Origin: Halostella pelagica
GTDB taxonomy: Archaea; Halobacteriota; Halobacteria; Halobacteriales; Natronoarchaeaceae
Assembly: GCA_005954745.1 (NCBI GenBank)
Contig: CP040678.1
Coordinates: 2,108,001 to 2,172,000, forward strand
Length of the DNA stretch: 64,000 nt
Reading direction: 5' to 3'
The notes beneath the pieces were generated by a model. The model ran no database searches, had not been told where the DNA came from, and saw only the letters and a list, made by a program, of their open reading frames with translations. The position numbers were made by a program, and so were the translations under genes. Positions 31,394 through 37,447 of this stretch are shown piece after piece; the first letter of the stretch is position 1; each line of letters opens with the position of its first letter.

Positions 31394-32758
31394 ATGGAGG
31401 ACACATCGAAATATCTCATTCACGCCGAAATCTCCGCCGACGGGGTGGTAGAGCGGAGTGACGTCGTCGGTGCGATCTTCGGTCAGACCGAGGGGCTCCT
31501 CGGCGACGAACTCGACCTGCGAGACCTCCAGCAGTCCTCGAAGGTCGGTCGTATCGAAGTCGAGATAGAGAGCGCCAGCGGCCGGTCGGAAGGCACGGTA
31601 ACCATCGCCACGAGCGTCGACAAAGTGGCGACGGCGACGCTCGCGGCCGCGCTGGAAGCGCTCGACCGGATCGGCCCCTGCCGAGCCGAACTCGAAGTCA
31701 CCGACATCGAAGACGTCCGGGCGGCGAAACGCCGCCGGATCGTCGAGCGCGCGCAGGAACTCCTACACGACTCGTTCGACGACGGCGTGATGACGAGCGA
31801 GGAGATCCTCGACGAAGTGAGACAGAGCGCCCGCGTCGGTACCGTCACCGACCACGAGGGGCAACCGGCAGGCCCCCGCGTCGCGGACAGCGACGCCGTC
31901 GTAGTCGTCGAGGGACGTTCGGACGTCCTCACGCTCCTGCGCTACGGGGTGAAAAACGCCGTCGCCGTCGAAGGGACGAACGTCCCCGACGCGGTCGCGG
32001 ATCTCACGGCCGACCGGACGGTGACAGCGTTTCTCGACGGCGACCGCGGCGGACACCTCATCCTCCGAGAACTGGGGCAGGTCGCTCAGATCGACTACGT
32101 CGCGTTCGCGCCCGACGGCAAGTCCGTCGAAGACCTCTCTCGCGAGGAAGTGTTTGCGGCGCTCCGCGAGAAGGAACCGCACGAGACGGTGGCCGACCGC
32201 CCCAACTCTCAGGACACCGTCGCCACGGACGGGAGCCGGTCGCCGTCCCCGCCGGTCGACGAGAACGCCACGACGGCAGAAACCCCGGTTTCACCGGAGA
32301 CGCTGGAGTCGCCAGGGCCGGACGACGCCGACACGACGGAACCGCTCCGACGCGGCGCCTCGGACGGGTCGGCAGCGACGGACGCGAACACGCCGGAATC
32401 GATGCCCGACGAGGCTGAAGCGGCGGAAAACGCCGAGGAAGCGGTTTCGACGGAGGCGGTCCCCGAGACGCTCCGCGACCACGTCGCCGAGGTGATCGAC
32501 GAGGGACGCGGGGTCGTCCGTCTGCTGGACGCCGACCACTCGCCGCTGTCCGAGGCACCGGCCGACGAGGCGGTCGACGCTGTCGACGACGCTGACCCGG
32601 TGCCGACCGCCGTGGTTCGCGACGGGGACGTCACTCAGCGACTCGCAGACGTGGCGGCCGACCGCGGCGTCGACCGTGTCGTCGGGAGCGACCGCGGGGA
32701 GTTCACCAAGCGCCCGACGAGCGTCCGCGTCCACGCCGCCGCCGACATCGAACTGTAG
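31394..32758 (+). CDS. dnaG: Archaeal DnaG-type primase
   Basis: A 454-residue archaeal DnaG. The N-terminal conserved region (GLLGDELDLRDLQ, RIEVEI) precedes a Toprim domain at about 168-250, with the catalytic Glu in VVVVEGRSDV and the acidic pair in AFLDGDRGGHLI. In archaea DnaG is a core part of the RNA exosome, giving poly(A)-rich RNA binding, and has some primase activity. A long, low-complexity acidic linker (about 275-360) is inserted before the conserved C-terminal region, as in other haloarchaea. Confidence 0.95.
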   Translation: MEDTSKYLIHAEISADGVVERSDVVGAIFGQTEGLLGDELDLRDLQQSSKVGRIEVEIESASGRSEGTVTIATSVDKVATATLAAALEALDRIGPCRAELEVTDIEDVRAAKRRRIVERAQELLHDSFDDGVMTSEEILDEVRQSARVGTVTDHEGQPAGPRVADSDAVVVVEGRSDVLTLLRYGVKNAVAVEGTNVPDAVADLTADRTVTAFLDGDRGGHLILRELGQVAQIDYVAFAPDGKSVEDLSREEVFAALREKEPHETVADRPNSQDTVATDGSRSPSPPVDENATTAETPVSPETLESPGPDDADTTEPLRRGASDGSAATDANTPESMPDEAEAAENAEEAVSTEAVPETLRDHVAEVIDEGRGVVRLLDADHSPLSEAPADEAVDAVDDADPVPTAVVRDGDVTQRLADVAADRGVDRVVGSDRGEFTKRPTSVRVHAAADIEL

Positions 32759-32768
32759 CGAACGCGCG

Positions 32769-33200
32769 CTACAACGGCCGCCGCATGAGCACGGCGGGAC
32801 CGCCGTCGTCGTAGTACGACTCTATTCGCGTTTTCTCCTCGAACCCGAACTCCTCGTACAGCCGTCTGGCCGCGTCGTTTCCCGGTTCGACGGCCAGTTC
32901 TACCGATGTCGCCTCCGTCTCGCGCAGGCGGGCGAGCGCCGCGGCGAGCAACCGCCGGCCGCGCCCCTCCCGTCGGTGCGACGGTGCCACGACGAGTTCA
33001 GCGACGTGGGCCGTTTCGGGGCCGTTCATCGCGAGGATGTACCCCACCGGAACGCCGGTATCGTCCGGCCCGTCGACTGACGCGAGCACCACGCCGGGTC
33101 CGCGGAGCGCGGTCGTCAGGAGCTGCGGACTCGACGCGGGGAGAAGCGACTGGAGCGCACGAAGCACGGGCATGTCGGCGGGCGTCGCCGCTCGGATCAC
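32769..33200 (-). CDS. GNAT-family N-acetyltransferase
   Basis: A 143-residue GCN5-related acetyltransferase. The acetyl-CoA loop RREGRGRRLLAAAL follows the strand VAELVVAPSHR, and the final part has ARRLYEEFGFEEK. It resembles RimI-type protein N-terminal acetyltransferases, but the substrate is not determined. Its ATG overlaps the stop of nothing on its own strand upstream; its start (33200) overlaps the end of the DUF92 gene by four bases, so the two are transcribed together with DUF92 first. Confidence 0.8.
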   Translation of the reverse strand: MIRAATPADMPVLRALQSLLPASSPQLLTTALRGPGVVLASVDGPDDTGVPVGYILAMNGPETAHVAELVVAPSHRREGRGRRLLAAALARLRETEATSVELAVEPGNDAARRLYEEFGFEEKTRIESYYDDGGPAVLMRRPL

Positions 33201-34537
33201 GCGACGGCGGCGATGCCCAGTCCGCTCGCCAGGACCGCCCCGACGGCGCCGCCGGACAGGGTGGCGAGGAAGTTCACGCTCTGGTTGCCGAGACGACCGC
33301 CCTCGACCGTCGCACCGAGGAGGCTATCGACGGTCATGCCGGCGACGCCGGCGACGAGGATGACGCCCGCGCCTGTCGGCCCGACCGAGTCGAGCAACGC
33401 GACGGCGACGAGCGCGATGAGCGTCGCCCCGGCGGTGCCGGCGAGTTCTCCCTGCCAGGTGACGGCACCGTCAGTCCCGGGGTCGACTGGTTTGAGCGTC
33501 GTGATCAGTCGTGGCCGGTCGAACACGCCGCCGATCTCGCTGGAGAGCGTGTCGCTCATCGCCGTGGAGATGGAGCCGGCAAACGCGTAGAGGAAGAGTC
33601 CCCCGGCGATCCCCGTGCCATCGCCGACCGGGAGATGGATCGGCGCGGCCGCGTACGCGAGGACGGCCGCCAGCGCGACCGCTGCGTTACTGAACACGTT
33701 TGAACTCCCACGCGCGCCCTCGTTTTTCTCCGCGACGCCGCGTTGGGCCTTCTCCTCGTACCGGAACTTGGTCGAGAGGCCGCCGATGCCGAAAAAGACG
33801 ATGATGACGGCGAACCACCCGATCCCGCCGAGAACGATCGTGAGCAGGCCGAGGAACACGCCCGATAGCATTCCGGAGACCGACGCGGTGTCGAGAGCGT
33901 AGGAGGCGTATCCGACGGCGACTGTCACCGCGAGGGCGATCCCGACATCGTGTACCGTCCCCGGGTCCGTCAGTTCCCAGAGGAACCAAAGCAGGAGTCC
34001 GACCGAGAGAACGACGACCGGGTCATCGCGTTCGAACAGGACCGACCGAAGCAACGCGCCGAGTAACGCGCCGCTTGCCGAGAGGAACACGACGAACGCG
34101 GGGGCCACCCCCGAGTCACCGTTCAGCAGCGCCGTGGCGAGAATGCCGATCCAGCAGCCGACGGCGCCGCCGAGGACGAATCCGACAGCGCCGACGACGG
34201 GGTCGGTCGAACGCCGGCGGACAACCTGTGCGGCCAGATTGCCGTACACGAGCGTCAGTACCGCACCGACGAACGCGAGTGTCGGCATCGCCTCGACGGT
34301 CGACAGGAGTCCGAGACCGGTCGCAGCGAGTGCGAATCCGATCAGTCCGTGCAGGCGGCCCTCTTCCCAGTCGCCGGGCCGCGCAAACAACTCGAACACC
34401 GGCCCGTCATCGACGAGCACGGCGATTCCCGCGACCACGGCGAACGGGACGGCGGCCGCCCATCCGAGCAGGGGTGCGACCAGTGCGAGGCTGCCGACCC
34501 CCGCAAACGCCCCCGCTCGCCGTACAGTCGATGTCAC
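33197..34537 (-). CDS. DUF92-family membrane protein
   Basis: A 446-residue protein with about twelve membrane helices. The C-terminal half has the family pattern: GIGGLSTKFRYEEK, SSNVFSNAAVALAA, DTLSSEIGGVFDR and VTWQGELAGTAGA. DUF92 includes plant VTE6 phytyl-phosphate kinase, which makes phytyl diphosphate. In archaea a CTP-dependent polyprenyl phosphate kinase role is possible but unproven. The start is GTG 34537 with a TATA-like GGTTAAG about 32 bases earlier. It is the first gene of a pair with the GNAT gene. Confidence 0.8.
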   Translation of the reverse strand: MTSTVRRAGAFAGVGSLALVAPLLGWAAAVPFAVVAGIAVLVDDGPVFELFARPGDWEEGRLHGLIGFALAATGLGLLSTVEAMPTLAFVGAVLTLVYGNLAAQVVRRRSTDPVVGAVGFVLGGAVGCWIGILATALLNGDSGVAPAFVVFLSASGALLGALLRSVLFERDDPVVVLSVGLLLWFLWELTDPGTVHDVGIALAVTVAVGYASYALDTASVSGMLSGVFLGLLTIVLGGIGWFAVIIVFFGIGGLSTKFRYEEKAQRGVAEKNEGARGSSNVFSNAAVALAAVLAYAAAPIHLPVGDGTGIAGGLFLYAFAGSISTAMSDTLSSEIGGVFDRPRLITTLKPVDPGTDGAVTWQGELAGTAGATLIALVAVALLDSVGPTGAGVILVAGVAGMTVDSLLGATVEGGRLGNQSVNFLATLSGGAVGAVLASGLGIAAVA

Positions 34538-34798: not shown

Positions 34799-35407
34799 GT
34801 GGGTCTCTACGATAGATATCTCGCCGCCCGTCTACGCTTCGAGGACGACGTTCGCCCGGACCGCGTCGCGATCGTCATCACGGAACGCGACCTGCTGGAG
34901 CAGGGAGCGTACGACACCTTAGAGGACGCCTTCAACTGGGCGTTCGAATACGACGCGGAACGGGTTACCGTCTCCGTGAGCGTACTCGACGAAGCGGCCG
35001 TTCCGACGCTGAAACGACAGTTCGACGACATCGACGTTCCCCGTACCATCGACGTTCGCGGACCGGACGACGACGTTCGCGCGGACGCCCCTATCCAGGT
35101 GAGCATCGGCCTCGGCGGCAAACACGAGTTCACCACCGCCGTCCGCGGCCTGGCCGAGGAAGTACAGGAGGGGGAACTGGACCCCGATGAGATAGACGCC
35201 GACGACATCGAGGACCGACTCGTCTTCCCCGAAGAACCCGACCTGGTCATCAAGACCGGCGCGGAGCGCCTCTCGGATTTCATGATCTGGCAGTCCGTCT
35301 ACTCCGAACTCTACTTCACCGACGTGAACTGGCGGGACTTCCGGAAGCGCGACTACCTGCGAGCGCTCCGGGAGTACGGGAAGCGAAACCGTCGATATGG
35401 GCGGTAG
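34799..35407 (+). CDS. cis-Prenyltransferase homologue lacking the N-terminal catalytic motif
   Basis: A 202-residue protein related to undecaprenyl diphosphate synthase (UPPS). The C-terminal half is well conserved: DLVIKTGAERLSDFMIWQ, SELYFTDVNW and a terminal RRYGR (RXG-like). The N-terminal DGNRR phosphate-binding motif is missing; VAIVITERDLLEQ stands in its place. This matches non-catalytic partners such as yeast Nus1/NgBR. A catalytic homologue faces it 56 bases away. The start is GTG 34799, preceded by a motif-containing promoter. A stabilising or activating partner in dolichol-type lipid carrier synthesis is inference. Confidence 0.7.
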   Translation: MGLYDRYLAARLRFEDDVRPDRVAIVITERDLLEQGAYDTLEDAFNWAFEYDAERVTVSVSVLDEAAVPTLKRQFDDIDVPRTIDVRGPDDDVRADAPIQVSIGLGGKHEFTTAVRGLAEEVQEGELDPDEIDADDIEDRLVFPEEPDLVIKTGAERLSDFMIWQSVYSELYFTDVNWRDFRKRDYLRALREYGKRNRRYGR

Positions 35408-35463
35408 CCTCGACACGGCACTGACGGAAAACGAACCGACGAGCGCTCGCCCGACGAGACCCG

Positions 35464-36411
35464 TCAGTCCGCCGGCTTCGGTTCCTCGTCCGCGGGCGGC
35501 AGATCCTCGGGCGCGACCTCGTCGACGGTCGAGCGCTCGCTGCTCGGTAACGAGTCGCGGAACCGCCGGACGACCGACCGGGCCTCGTCGAGTTCGACGC
35601 CGCCGAGCGCGCGCAAGAGCGCGAGGCCGCGGCGGGCGCGGGTGCGCCGCCACGACCGTTCCCGGTGCTCGTAAGTGCGGATTCCCCGCAGGAAGTCGAC
35701 GCGGGAGAACTCCGGCCAGTACGGCGTACAGAAATAGACGGCCGCCTCGTTTCCGTTCGCGTGCCACGGGAGGAAGTTGCTCGTCCGCTCGTCGCCGCCG
35801 GTTCGGAGGATGAGGTCGACGTCGCGAACCGGGCGGTCGTACAGCCTTTTCTCGACGGTTTCGACGTCGACGTCGTCGGTGCGGAGGTCCCCGTCGTCGA
35901 CCTCCCGGGCAACGCTCTGTGCGGCGGAGAGTAGCTGGGCCCGGCCGCCGTACGCGAGCGCGATGTTCAGAACGAACCGGTCGTAGCCGCGGGTCCGGTC
36001 CTCCGCGTACTCGACCGCGTCCCGGACGCGCTCCGGCAGGCGGTCCACGTCGCCAAGCACTCGAATACACACCTCGCCGTCGTGGACGCGGTCGGCGTCA
36101 GCGAACTCGTGGAGTTTCTCCTCGAGGAGGTCGAACAGCGGTTCGCGCTCCTCCTCGGGACGGTCGAAGTTCTCCGTCGAGAAAGTGTAGAGCGTCAGTT
36201 CGTCGATGTTCATGTCCCGGCACCAGTTCAACACCTGTTCGGTCGTCTCCGCGCCGGATCGGTACCCGTCGTGTTTCTCTGTGCCCTGCTTTCGGGCGTA
36301 TCGTCTGTTTCCGTCCTGAATCACGGCCACGTGCGACGGTGTTCCCGATATTTCGCGTTCGAGCAGTCGCTCGTAGGCATCCTCGGCGCGCTCGCGGAGA
36401 CCAGACAGCAT
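35464..36411 (-). CDS. uppS: cis-Prenyltransferase (undecaprenyl diphosphate synthase family)
   Basis: A 315-residue cis-prenyltransferase that elongates allylic diphosphates with isopentenyl diphosphate, here probably for dolichol-type carriers of N-glycosylation. The catalytic motif HVAVIQDGNRRYARKQG is intact (about 28-44), as are YTFSTENFDR and DLILRTGGDERTSNF. The C-terminal region where most UPPS proteins have SELYF and RXG is altered (NEAAVYFC, RERSWRR). This complements the neighbouring short homologue, which has those motifs but lacks the catalytic one. The last 60 residues are extra and partly disordered. Confidence 0.9.
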   Translation of the reverse strand: MLSGLRERAEDAYERLLEREISGTPSHVAVIQDGNRRYARKQGTEKHDGYRSGAETTEQVLNWCRDMNIDELTLYTFSTENFDRPEEEREPLFDLLEEKLHEFADADRVHDGEVCIRVLGDVDRLPERVRDAVEYAEDRTRGYDRFVLNIALAYGGRAQLLSAAQSVAREVDDGDLRTDDVDVETVEKRLYDRPVRDVDLILRTGGDERTSNFLPWHANGNEAAVYFCTPYWPEFSRVDFLRGIRTYEHRERSWRRTRARRGLALLRALGGVELDEARSVVRRFRDSLPSSERSTVDEVAPEDLPPADEEPKPAD

Positions 36412-36519: not shown

Positions 36520-36610
36520 TCTTCACTGACTTCCGTCCGTCAGTATCAGTACGCGTCTGCGGGCCGTGAAAGCAGATCTCGGCCTCCACGACGACCGCGA
36601 GTCGCATAGC

Positions 36611-36617
36611 TTATATA
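36611..36617 (+). promoter_or_regulatory. TATA box of the cold-shock gene
   Basis: TTATATA lies about 29 bases before the ATG at 36643, the canonical leaderless spacing. Confidence 0.6.
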
Positions 36618-36642
36618 GGCGGAGCCACTCTCCAGAGTTGCA

Positions 36643-36837
36643 ATGGCGAAAGGTACGGTTGACTTCTTCAACGACACGGGCGGTTACGGTTTCATTGACA
36701 GCGACGACTCCGAGGAAGACGTGTTCTTCCACATGGAGGACGTCGGCGGTCCTGACCTGGAGGAAGGTCAGGAAGTCGAGTTCGATATCGAGCAGGCCGA
36801 CAAGGGCCCGCGCGCGACGAACCTCGAGCGTCTGTAA
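36643..36837 (+). CDS. cspA: Cold-shock-domain protein
   Basis: A 64-residue CspA-type OB-fold protein that binds single-stranded RNA or DNA. It has RNP1-like GGYGFI and RNP2-like DVFFHMED, and the expected acidic haloarchaeal surface. The usual KGFGFI lysine is replaced (NDTGGYGFI). It is probably an RNA chaperone. The gene has a clear TATA box and probably a leaderless transcript. Confidence 0.93.
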   Translation: MAKGTVDFFNDTGGYGFIDSDDSEEDVFFHMEDVGGPDLEEGQEVEFDIEQADKGPRATNLERL

Positions 36838-37048
36838 ACCGGTTTACAGCCCAATTCGCATCCGGGCGCTGTCAGGCGGCGCGGCGACGCGCATCTCTGG
36901 GGGTCCACCCCTCTGCAGTCCGCCCGTGCATCGTTTCTCCGTTTTTTCACACACGCCAGCGACGGCTCCGGCCGCACGCGATGACCGGAAACCGCTCGCT
37001 CGCGCGGAAACGGGTACCATAAGGGGACGCGACACGTTCGTCCCGCTA

Positions 37049-37447
37049 ATGAGCGACGCTCTCGACGACGACCTGTACCGGCGGACCAAGCAGTTGCTCG
37101 AACCCGGCGAGATAGAACTCAACGGTGCCGTCGTCCACACGGACATCGAGTCCCAGGACGACATCGCGATGACGCAGGCGACCATCGACATCGGCGAGGT
37201 CATCGCCGACCACGCTACGGACGAGGAGGCGTACGTCTACTCCGGCTCCGACGACCCCGAGTTCGCGTCGAATCAGCATCAGGGGCTCACGCTCGACGAC
37301 GACGAGTTCGTCTGGGAGTGCCAGCAGCTTCTCCGCAACGGCACGTTCGACGTTGTCTTCTACTACGAGGCCACCGCCGACCACGAGGCCATTCTGGAAG
37401 ACATTCGCGAGGCGGGCTTCGACGTGACGGGCGTCCGCGGCGACTGA
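37049..37447 (+). CDS. Conserved haloarchaeal protein (DUF5778-like)
   Basis: A 132-residue acidic protein, MSDALDDDLYRRTKQLLEPG, with strands TQATIDIGEVIADH and TFDVVFYYEATADHEAI. I recognise the family only as a conserved haloarchaeal protein (DUF5778 from memory) of unknown function. The ATG at 37049 is chosen over the longer upstream frame, which crosses the region after the cold-shock gene. Confidence 0.65.
   Translation: MSDALDDDLYRRTKQLLEPGEIELNGAVVHTDIESQDDIAMTQATIDIGEVIADHATDEEAYVYSGSDDPEFASNQHQGLTLDDDEFVWECQQLLRNGTFDVVFYYEATADHEAILEDIREAGFDVTGVRGD

Follow-up and report, generated by a model that had tools for sequence, protein, structure and literature searches.

A convergent gene pair in Halostella pelagica probably encodes the two subunits of a heteromeric cis-prenyltransferase

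Two neighbouring genes of the haloarchaeon Halostella pelagica very probably encode the catalytic and accessory subunits of one obligate heteromeric cis-prenyltransferase (cPT). We refer to their products as the long and the short protein. The genes are convergent and lie tail to tail, with stop codons 56 bp apart, in the window, by which we mean the whole 64,000-nucleotide stretch of contig CP040678.1 that was analysed (Table 1). These positions, strands and spacing had been given in an earlier note made from the DNA letters alone, and both ORFs were confirmed.

Results

The gene pair

The long protein matched the PF01255 profile at positions 1-217 (E 6.8e-67), and the short protein matched the C-terminal half of the profile alone (116-219, E 1.6e-25). 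A genome-wide search returned exactly these two PF01255 genes. Since there is no third, one or both proteins must make the long polyprenyl diphosphate of the cell. The short family is 201 or 202 residues long in nearly all of 86 haloarchaea. No relatives of the pair were found among viral contigs.

Table 1. Features of the cPT locus, with positions counted from the first letter of the window.
Feature	Position	Strand	Remark
PF01940 (DUF92) membrane protein, divergent neighbour of the short gene	33197..34537	-	Relative of the dolichol kinase/cytidylyltransferase group
Gene of the short (NgBR/Nus1-like, predicted non-catalytic) cPT subunit	34799..35407	+	GTG start, 202 codons plus stop
ITERDLL, short residues 27-33, replacing the DGN pyrophosphate-binding loop	34877..34897	+	E29, D31, L32 and L33 invariant in 86 haloarchaea
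C-terminal RYGR, short residues 199-202: RxG and one residue, then the C-terminus	35393..35404	+	Proposed to complete the active site of the partner in trans
Gap between both stop codons	35408..35463		56 bp
Gene of the long (DHDDS-like, predicted catalytic) cPT subunit	35464..36411	-	315 codons plus stop
C-terminal extension, long residues 256-315	35467..35646	-	Mainly helices by prediction (to 268, 275-283, 290-296)
S253-W254-R255 instead of RxG (R242-F243-G244 in E. coli)	35647..35655	-	From alignment
RTGGDERTS, long residues 203-211, IPP site R203, R209, S211	35779..35805	-	Equivalent to R205, R211, S213 of DHDDS
STENFDR, long residues 78-84 (E80, N81, R84)	36160..36180	-	Equivalent to E81, N82, R85 of DHDDS
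DGNRR, long residues 33-37, Mg-pyrophosphate site	36301..36315	-	Equivalent to D34-R37-R38 of DHDDS

Division of motifs between the two proteins

In the human enzyme structure, residues D34, R37, R38, E81, N82, R85, R205, R211 and S213 of DHDDS either bind substrate or support the site (PMC7573591). Among 98 haloarchaeal long proteins, D33, G34, N35, R36, R37, E80, N81, R84, R203, R209 and S211 were invariant where covered; in the named loci, seven long sequences had no DGN, being either truncated at a locus end or read in a wrong frame. The earlier note had described the long protein as having DGNRR and an altered C-terminus, in agreement with DGNRR at residues 33-37 and Ser-Trp-Arg instead of RxG. 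Ser253 and Trp254 occupied the RxG position in 95 of the 98 sequences. A search of the C-terminal 91 residues of the long protein against PDB gave no match. As a separate observation, residue 50 of the long protein (36262-36264, minus strand), at the position of H43 in E. coli UppS, is Tyr; it is His in 89 of the 98 haloarchaeal sequences, and Tyr is common to nine genomes from several families.

At the DGNRR position the short protein has TERDL, and a conserved TERDLL replaces the DGN loop in the 86 haloarchaeal short proteins. R199 and G201 were invariant in these 86, and all 80 short proteins from the named haloarchaeal loci ended in R-[FY]-G-x. Considering that D33-R37 are invariant in the 98 long proteins, and R199 and G201 in the 86 short ones, the motif partition is not due to chance. 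At the N-terminus the short protein has one charged helix (residues 3-14). Here MGLYDRYLAARLRF directly precedes the cPT fold, and neither a membrane anchor nor a hydrophobic segment was found.

That the short protein lacks DGNRR and carries RLSDF, SELYF and RRYGR, as previously noted, proved correct. The further claim that the two proteins together make up one full set of motifs stood as regards a complementary set but not an even split, since the long protein keeps R203, R209 and S211. Because these IPP-site residues are its own, the short protein would be needed for the RxG tail (perhaps with E170) and not for RLSDF.

Distribution and co-occurrence

Haloarchaea were represented by 194 genomes from 65 genera, each at least 90% complete. 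At least one long-type and at least one short-type match were found in 193 of these, mostly as exactly two PF01255 matches. The exception (G071) is a draft of 120 contigs in which the short type was present and the long type was not found. Six haloarchaea (G060, G067, G097, G104, G147 and G148) and, outside this group, G211 had two long types and one short type, while two short types were seen in none of the genomes inspected in detail. This suggests that a single accessory subunit may serve two catalytic subunits. G002 has a third PF01255 match, divergent and lacking DGN (G002:C1:478925-479599; L195, L295), within an open frame of 622 residues.

The same pattern extended to a phylum-wide sample of 110 genomes, 20 of them haloarchaea. 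PF01255 was present in 108, nearly all with exactly two matches, of which one was full-length and the other lacked the N-terminus of the profile yet reached its end. Among 35 pairs from many families outside the haloarchaea, every long protein and no short protein had DGNR. The short proteins of these pairs ended in RxG plus one residue, with one KxG variant, in G211. RxG-like strings near the C-terminal end occurred in 4 of the 35 long proteins (G212, G245, G253 and G281); we take them as sporadic, as relatives in the same families are without them, with a caveat remaining. Whether the genes co-occur had been set as a check by the earlier note, and they do so in all but one of the haloarchaea and in almost all other sampled genomes of the phylum. 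Two genomes of one genus, G200 and G208 (91% complete, 180-270 contigs), had no PF01255 match, through either missing sequence or real loss.

Gene order and neighbourhood

Positions of both genes were listed for 108 haloarchaeal genomes, in which related genomes are not independent samples; the pair lay within 7.2 kb in 85, always convergent, and was distant or on separate contigs in the other 23. In the 80 named haloarchaeal loci, the long gene was found within 4 kb in 68, all convergent, with gaps often below 100 bp. Outside the haloarchaea, the genes were convergent neighbours in 23 genomes from ten families and apart in others, including the family of the genomes with three cPTs. The complementary set was also kept in the 23 haloarchaeal genomes with distant genes. 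Since both genes are also present when far apart, their co-occurrence is independent of gene order. The convergent order is old but dispensable.

A PF01940 (DUF92) gene stood beside the short gene, divergent to it, in 72 of the 80 haloarchaeal loci (L203-L282). The link between DUF92 and uppS and a possible kinase role have already been published (PMC5898192), and this neighbour fits a lipid-carrier neighbourhood. A Toprim gene of the archaeal primase-like kind lies near the DUF92 gene, at 31394-32758, often with a GNAT gene in between. The ORF at 36566-37447 (plus strand) is listed longer than its gene: PF19090 (DUF5778) covers residues 166-290 only, and the start of the ORF overlaps a cold-shock-domain-like protein beginning near 36643.

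Relation to known cis-prenyltransferases

Methanosarcina mazei encodes MM_0014 together with a heteromeric cPT made of MM_0618 and MM_1083 (Emi et al. 2019), three cPTs in all, and the C45-50 products of the heteromer are presumed to be the glycosyl carrier lipid (PMC8131916). The Methanosarcina heteromeric enzyme mentioned in the earlier note thus exists. MM_0014 was studied singly and is active; it is without RxG and ends in TLGG (PMC8131916). The three-cPT genomes G283 and G211, which belong to the phylum of H. pelagica, each contained a DGNRR long type, one short type and an MM_0014-like gene ending in TLGG. As the third gene of G283 ends like MM_0014, its other two types would be the MM_0618/MM_1083 heteromer, which by elimination appears to correspond to the haloarchaeal pair. 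The genes of this pair are tail to tail in haloarchaea, whereas in the three-cPT family they lie apart and the C-terminal tail of the long protein differs. Activity of the M. mazei heteromer has been demonstrated, while the haloarchaeal pair is known here from sequences and single-chain models.

We inferred a maximum-likelihood tree for 110 sequences, with two bacterial UppS as the root. In it, one clade comprised all 53 short proteins (bootstrap 79) and another all 53 long proteins (bootstrap 96), and the non-MM_0014 cPTs of the three-cPT genomes fell in the same clades as the haloarchaeal short and long. MM_0014-like proteins, which belong to the same Pfam family and likewise have no RxG, were placed outside both, as a separate clade with the TLGG end. 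Since each type forms its own clade, the split is ancient. The simplest reading of the tree, in which the root and deep nodes have only moderate support, would be that a single duplication, no later than the base of the phylum, gave both types. We are doubtful of a wider scenario, in which the types split a single time, no later than the phylum root, the split persisted in essentially every lineage and the tail-to-tail order in many families, and the eukaryotic DHDDS/NUS1 pair goes back to this event and not to an independent one. The N-terminal half of the short protein showed no special affinity to NUS1 in PDB comparisons, and therefore lends no support to shared ancestry with it.

AlphaFold2 single-chain models were built from 61 short and 54 long sequences. 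The short model (mean pLDDT 86.4) has a cPT fold, confidence in the monomer being low for the tail (199-202) and for residues 165-167. It matched UppS and other cPT chains first in a structure comparison with PDB, and UppS chains outscored NUS1 for both the whole short profile and its N-terminal half. The long model (mean pLDDT 77.3) has helices at 237-268, 275-283 and 290-296. Its best PDB match was human DHDDS (E 4e-18, 295 aligned columns), with a poor overall rmsd and a C-terminal part that was not well superposed.

Human DHDDS/NgBR and yeast Rer2 or Srt1 with Nus1 likewise divide DGNRR and RxG between subunits. The NgBR chain ends with R290-L291-G292-K293, and this tail reaches over to form the site (PMC7573591). 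NgBR and the archaeal short protein both end exactly one residue past RxG, with tails equal in length and motif, and DHDDS and the archaeal long protein both have a helical C-terminal extension. Unlike NgBR, the archaeal short protein is without an N-terminal membrane segment, and by sequence and fold it is nearer to bacterial UppS than to NgBR/NUS1. The homodimeric UppS of E. coli resembles the archaeal long protein in fold and substrate-site residues, but has DGN and RxG within one chain, which neither haloarchaeal protein combines. In yeast, two catalytic subunits, Rer2 and Srt1, occur with one Nus1, and the archaeal genomes with two long types and one short type resemble this arrangement.

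Discussion

We infer the physical complex of the two proteins, its activity and its product, and suggest the following mechanism. The long subunit would hold the allylic substrate and Mg2+ through DGNRR and STENF-R, and isopentenyl diphosphate through R203, R209 and S211, and would also contain the hydrophobic tunnel. It would be unable to complete its own active site, as Ser-Trp stands in for the RxG triplet and a helical extension comes after it. The short subunit, which has a cPT fold but no pyrophosphate site of its own, would form a dimer with the long one through the usual interface and insert its C-terminal Arg-x-Gly-x tail into the active site of the long. The product would be a long polyprenyl diphosphate leading to dolichol phosphate, which serves as carrier in N-glycosylation and in the assembly of other glycans.

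The long protein could instead be a self-sufficient homodimeric synthase, with the short one a regulatory or diverged paralogue that catalysis can spare. Every residue whose side chain contacts ligand is indeed present in the long chain, and the archaeal MM_0014 is active despite having no RxG (PMC8131916). However, the short tail has been kept throughout the phylum, in every case with a single residue beyond RxG, and in the haloarchaeal long proteins RxG has been swapped for a conserved SW rather than left to decay. One type occurred alone in just one sampled genome, the 120-contig draft, and the M. mazei counterparts are reported to form a heteromeric enzyme (PMC8131916). We therefore consider a self-sufficient long protein quite unlikely.

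It is highly improbable that the two are separate, unpaired enzymes, the short one having a different activity such as another prenyl transfer. Enzymes with altered reactions do occur in this family, and the conserved ITERDLL of the short protein is what a new function might require. Yet neither the Asp nor the Arg of the pyrophosphate site survives in the short protein, and conservation is highest in the latter half of its fold and in the C-terminal tail, the part that acts in trans in this family. Equally hard to credit is an accidental proximity of the genes, with each protein pairing with another partner: the opposite strands mean that no operon links them, but the genome has no other PF01255 genes, and both types are present even in genomes that carry them at distant loci. 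An obligate heteromer of catalytic and accessory subunits thus remains by far the most probable reading.

Heteromeric cPTs of this kind are already known. Added here are the near-universal presence of the pair in the sampled phylum, its conserved tail-to-tail order and the apparent single origin of both subunit types. On family assignment alone, both proteins would pass as undecaprenyl diphosphate synthases. Should the two pair as proposed, neither haloarchaeal protein would work properly alone, which bears on the reconstitution of archaeal dolichol synthesis. Mutations in human DHDDS and NgBR cause glycosylation disorders, and Haloferax and Halobacterium would then offer soluble, genetically tractable models of a DHDDS/NgBR-type enzyme. 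The genomes with two long types would likewise be natural cases of one accessory subunit beside two catalytic ones.
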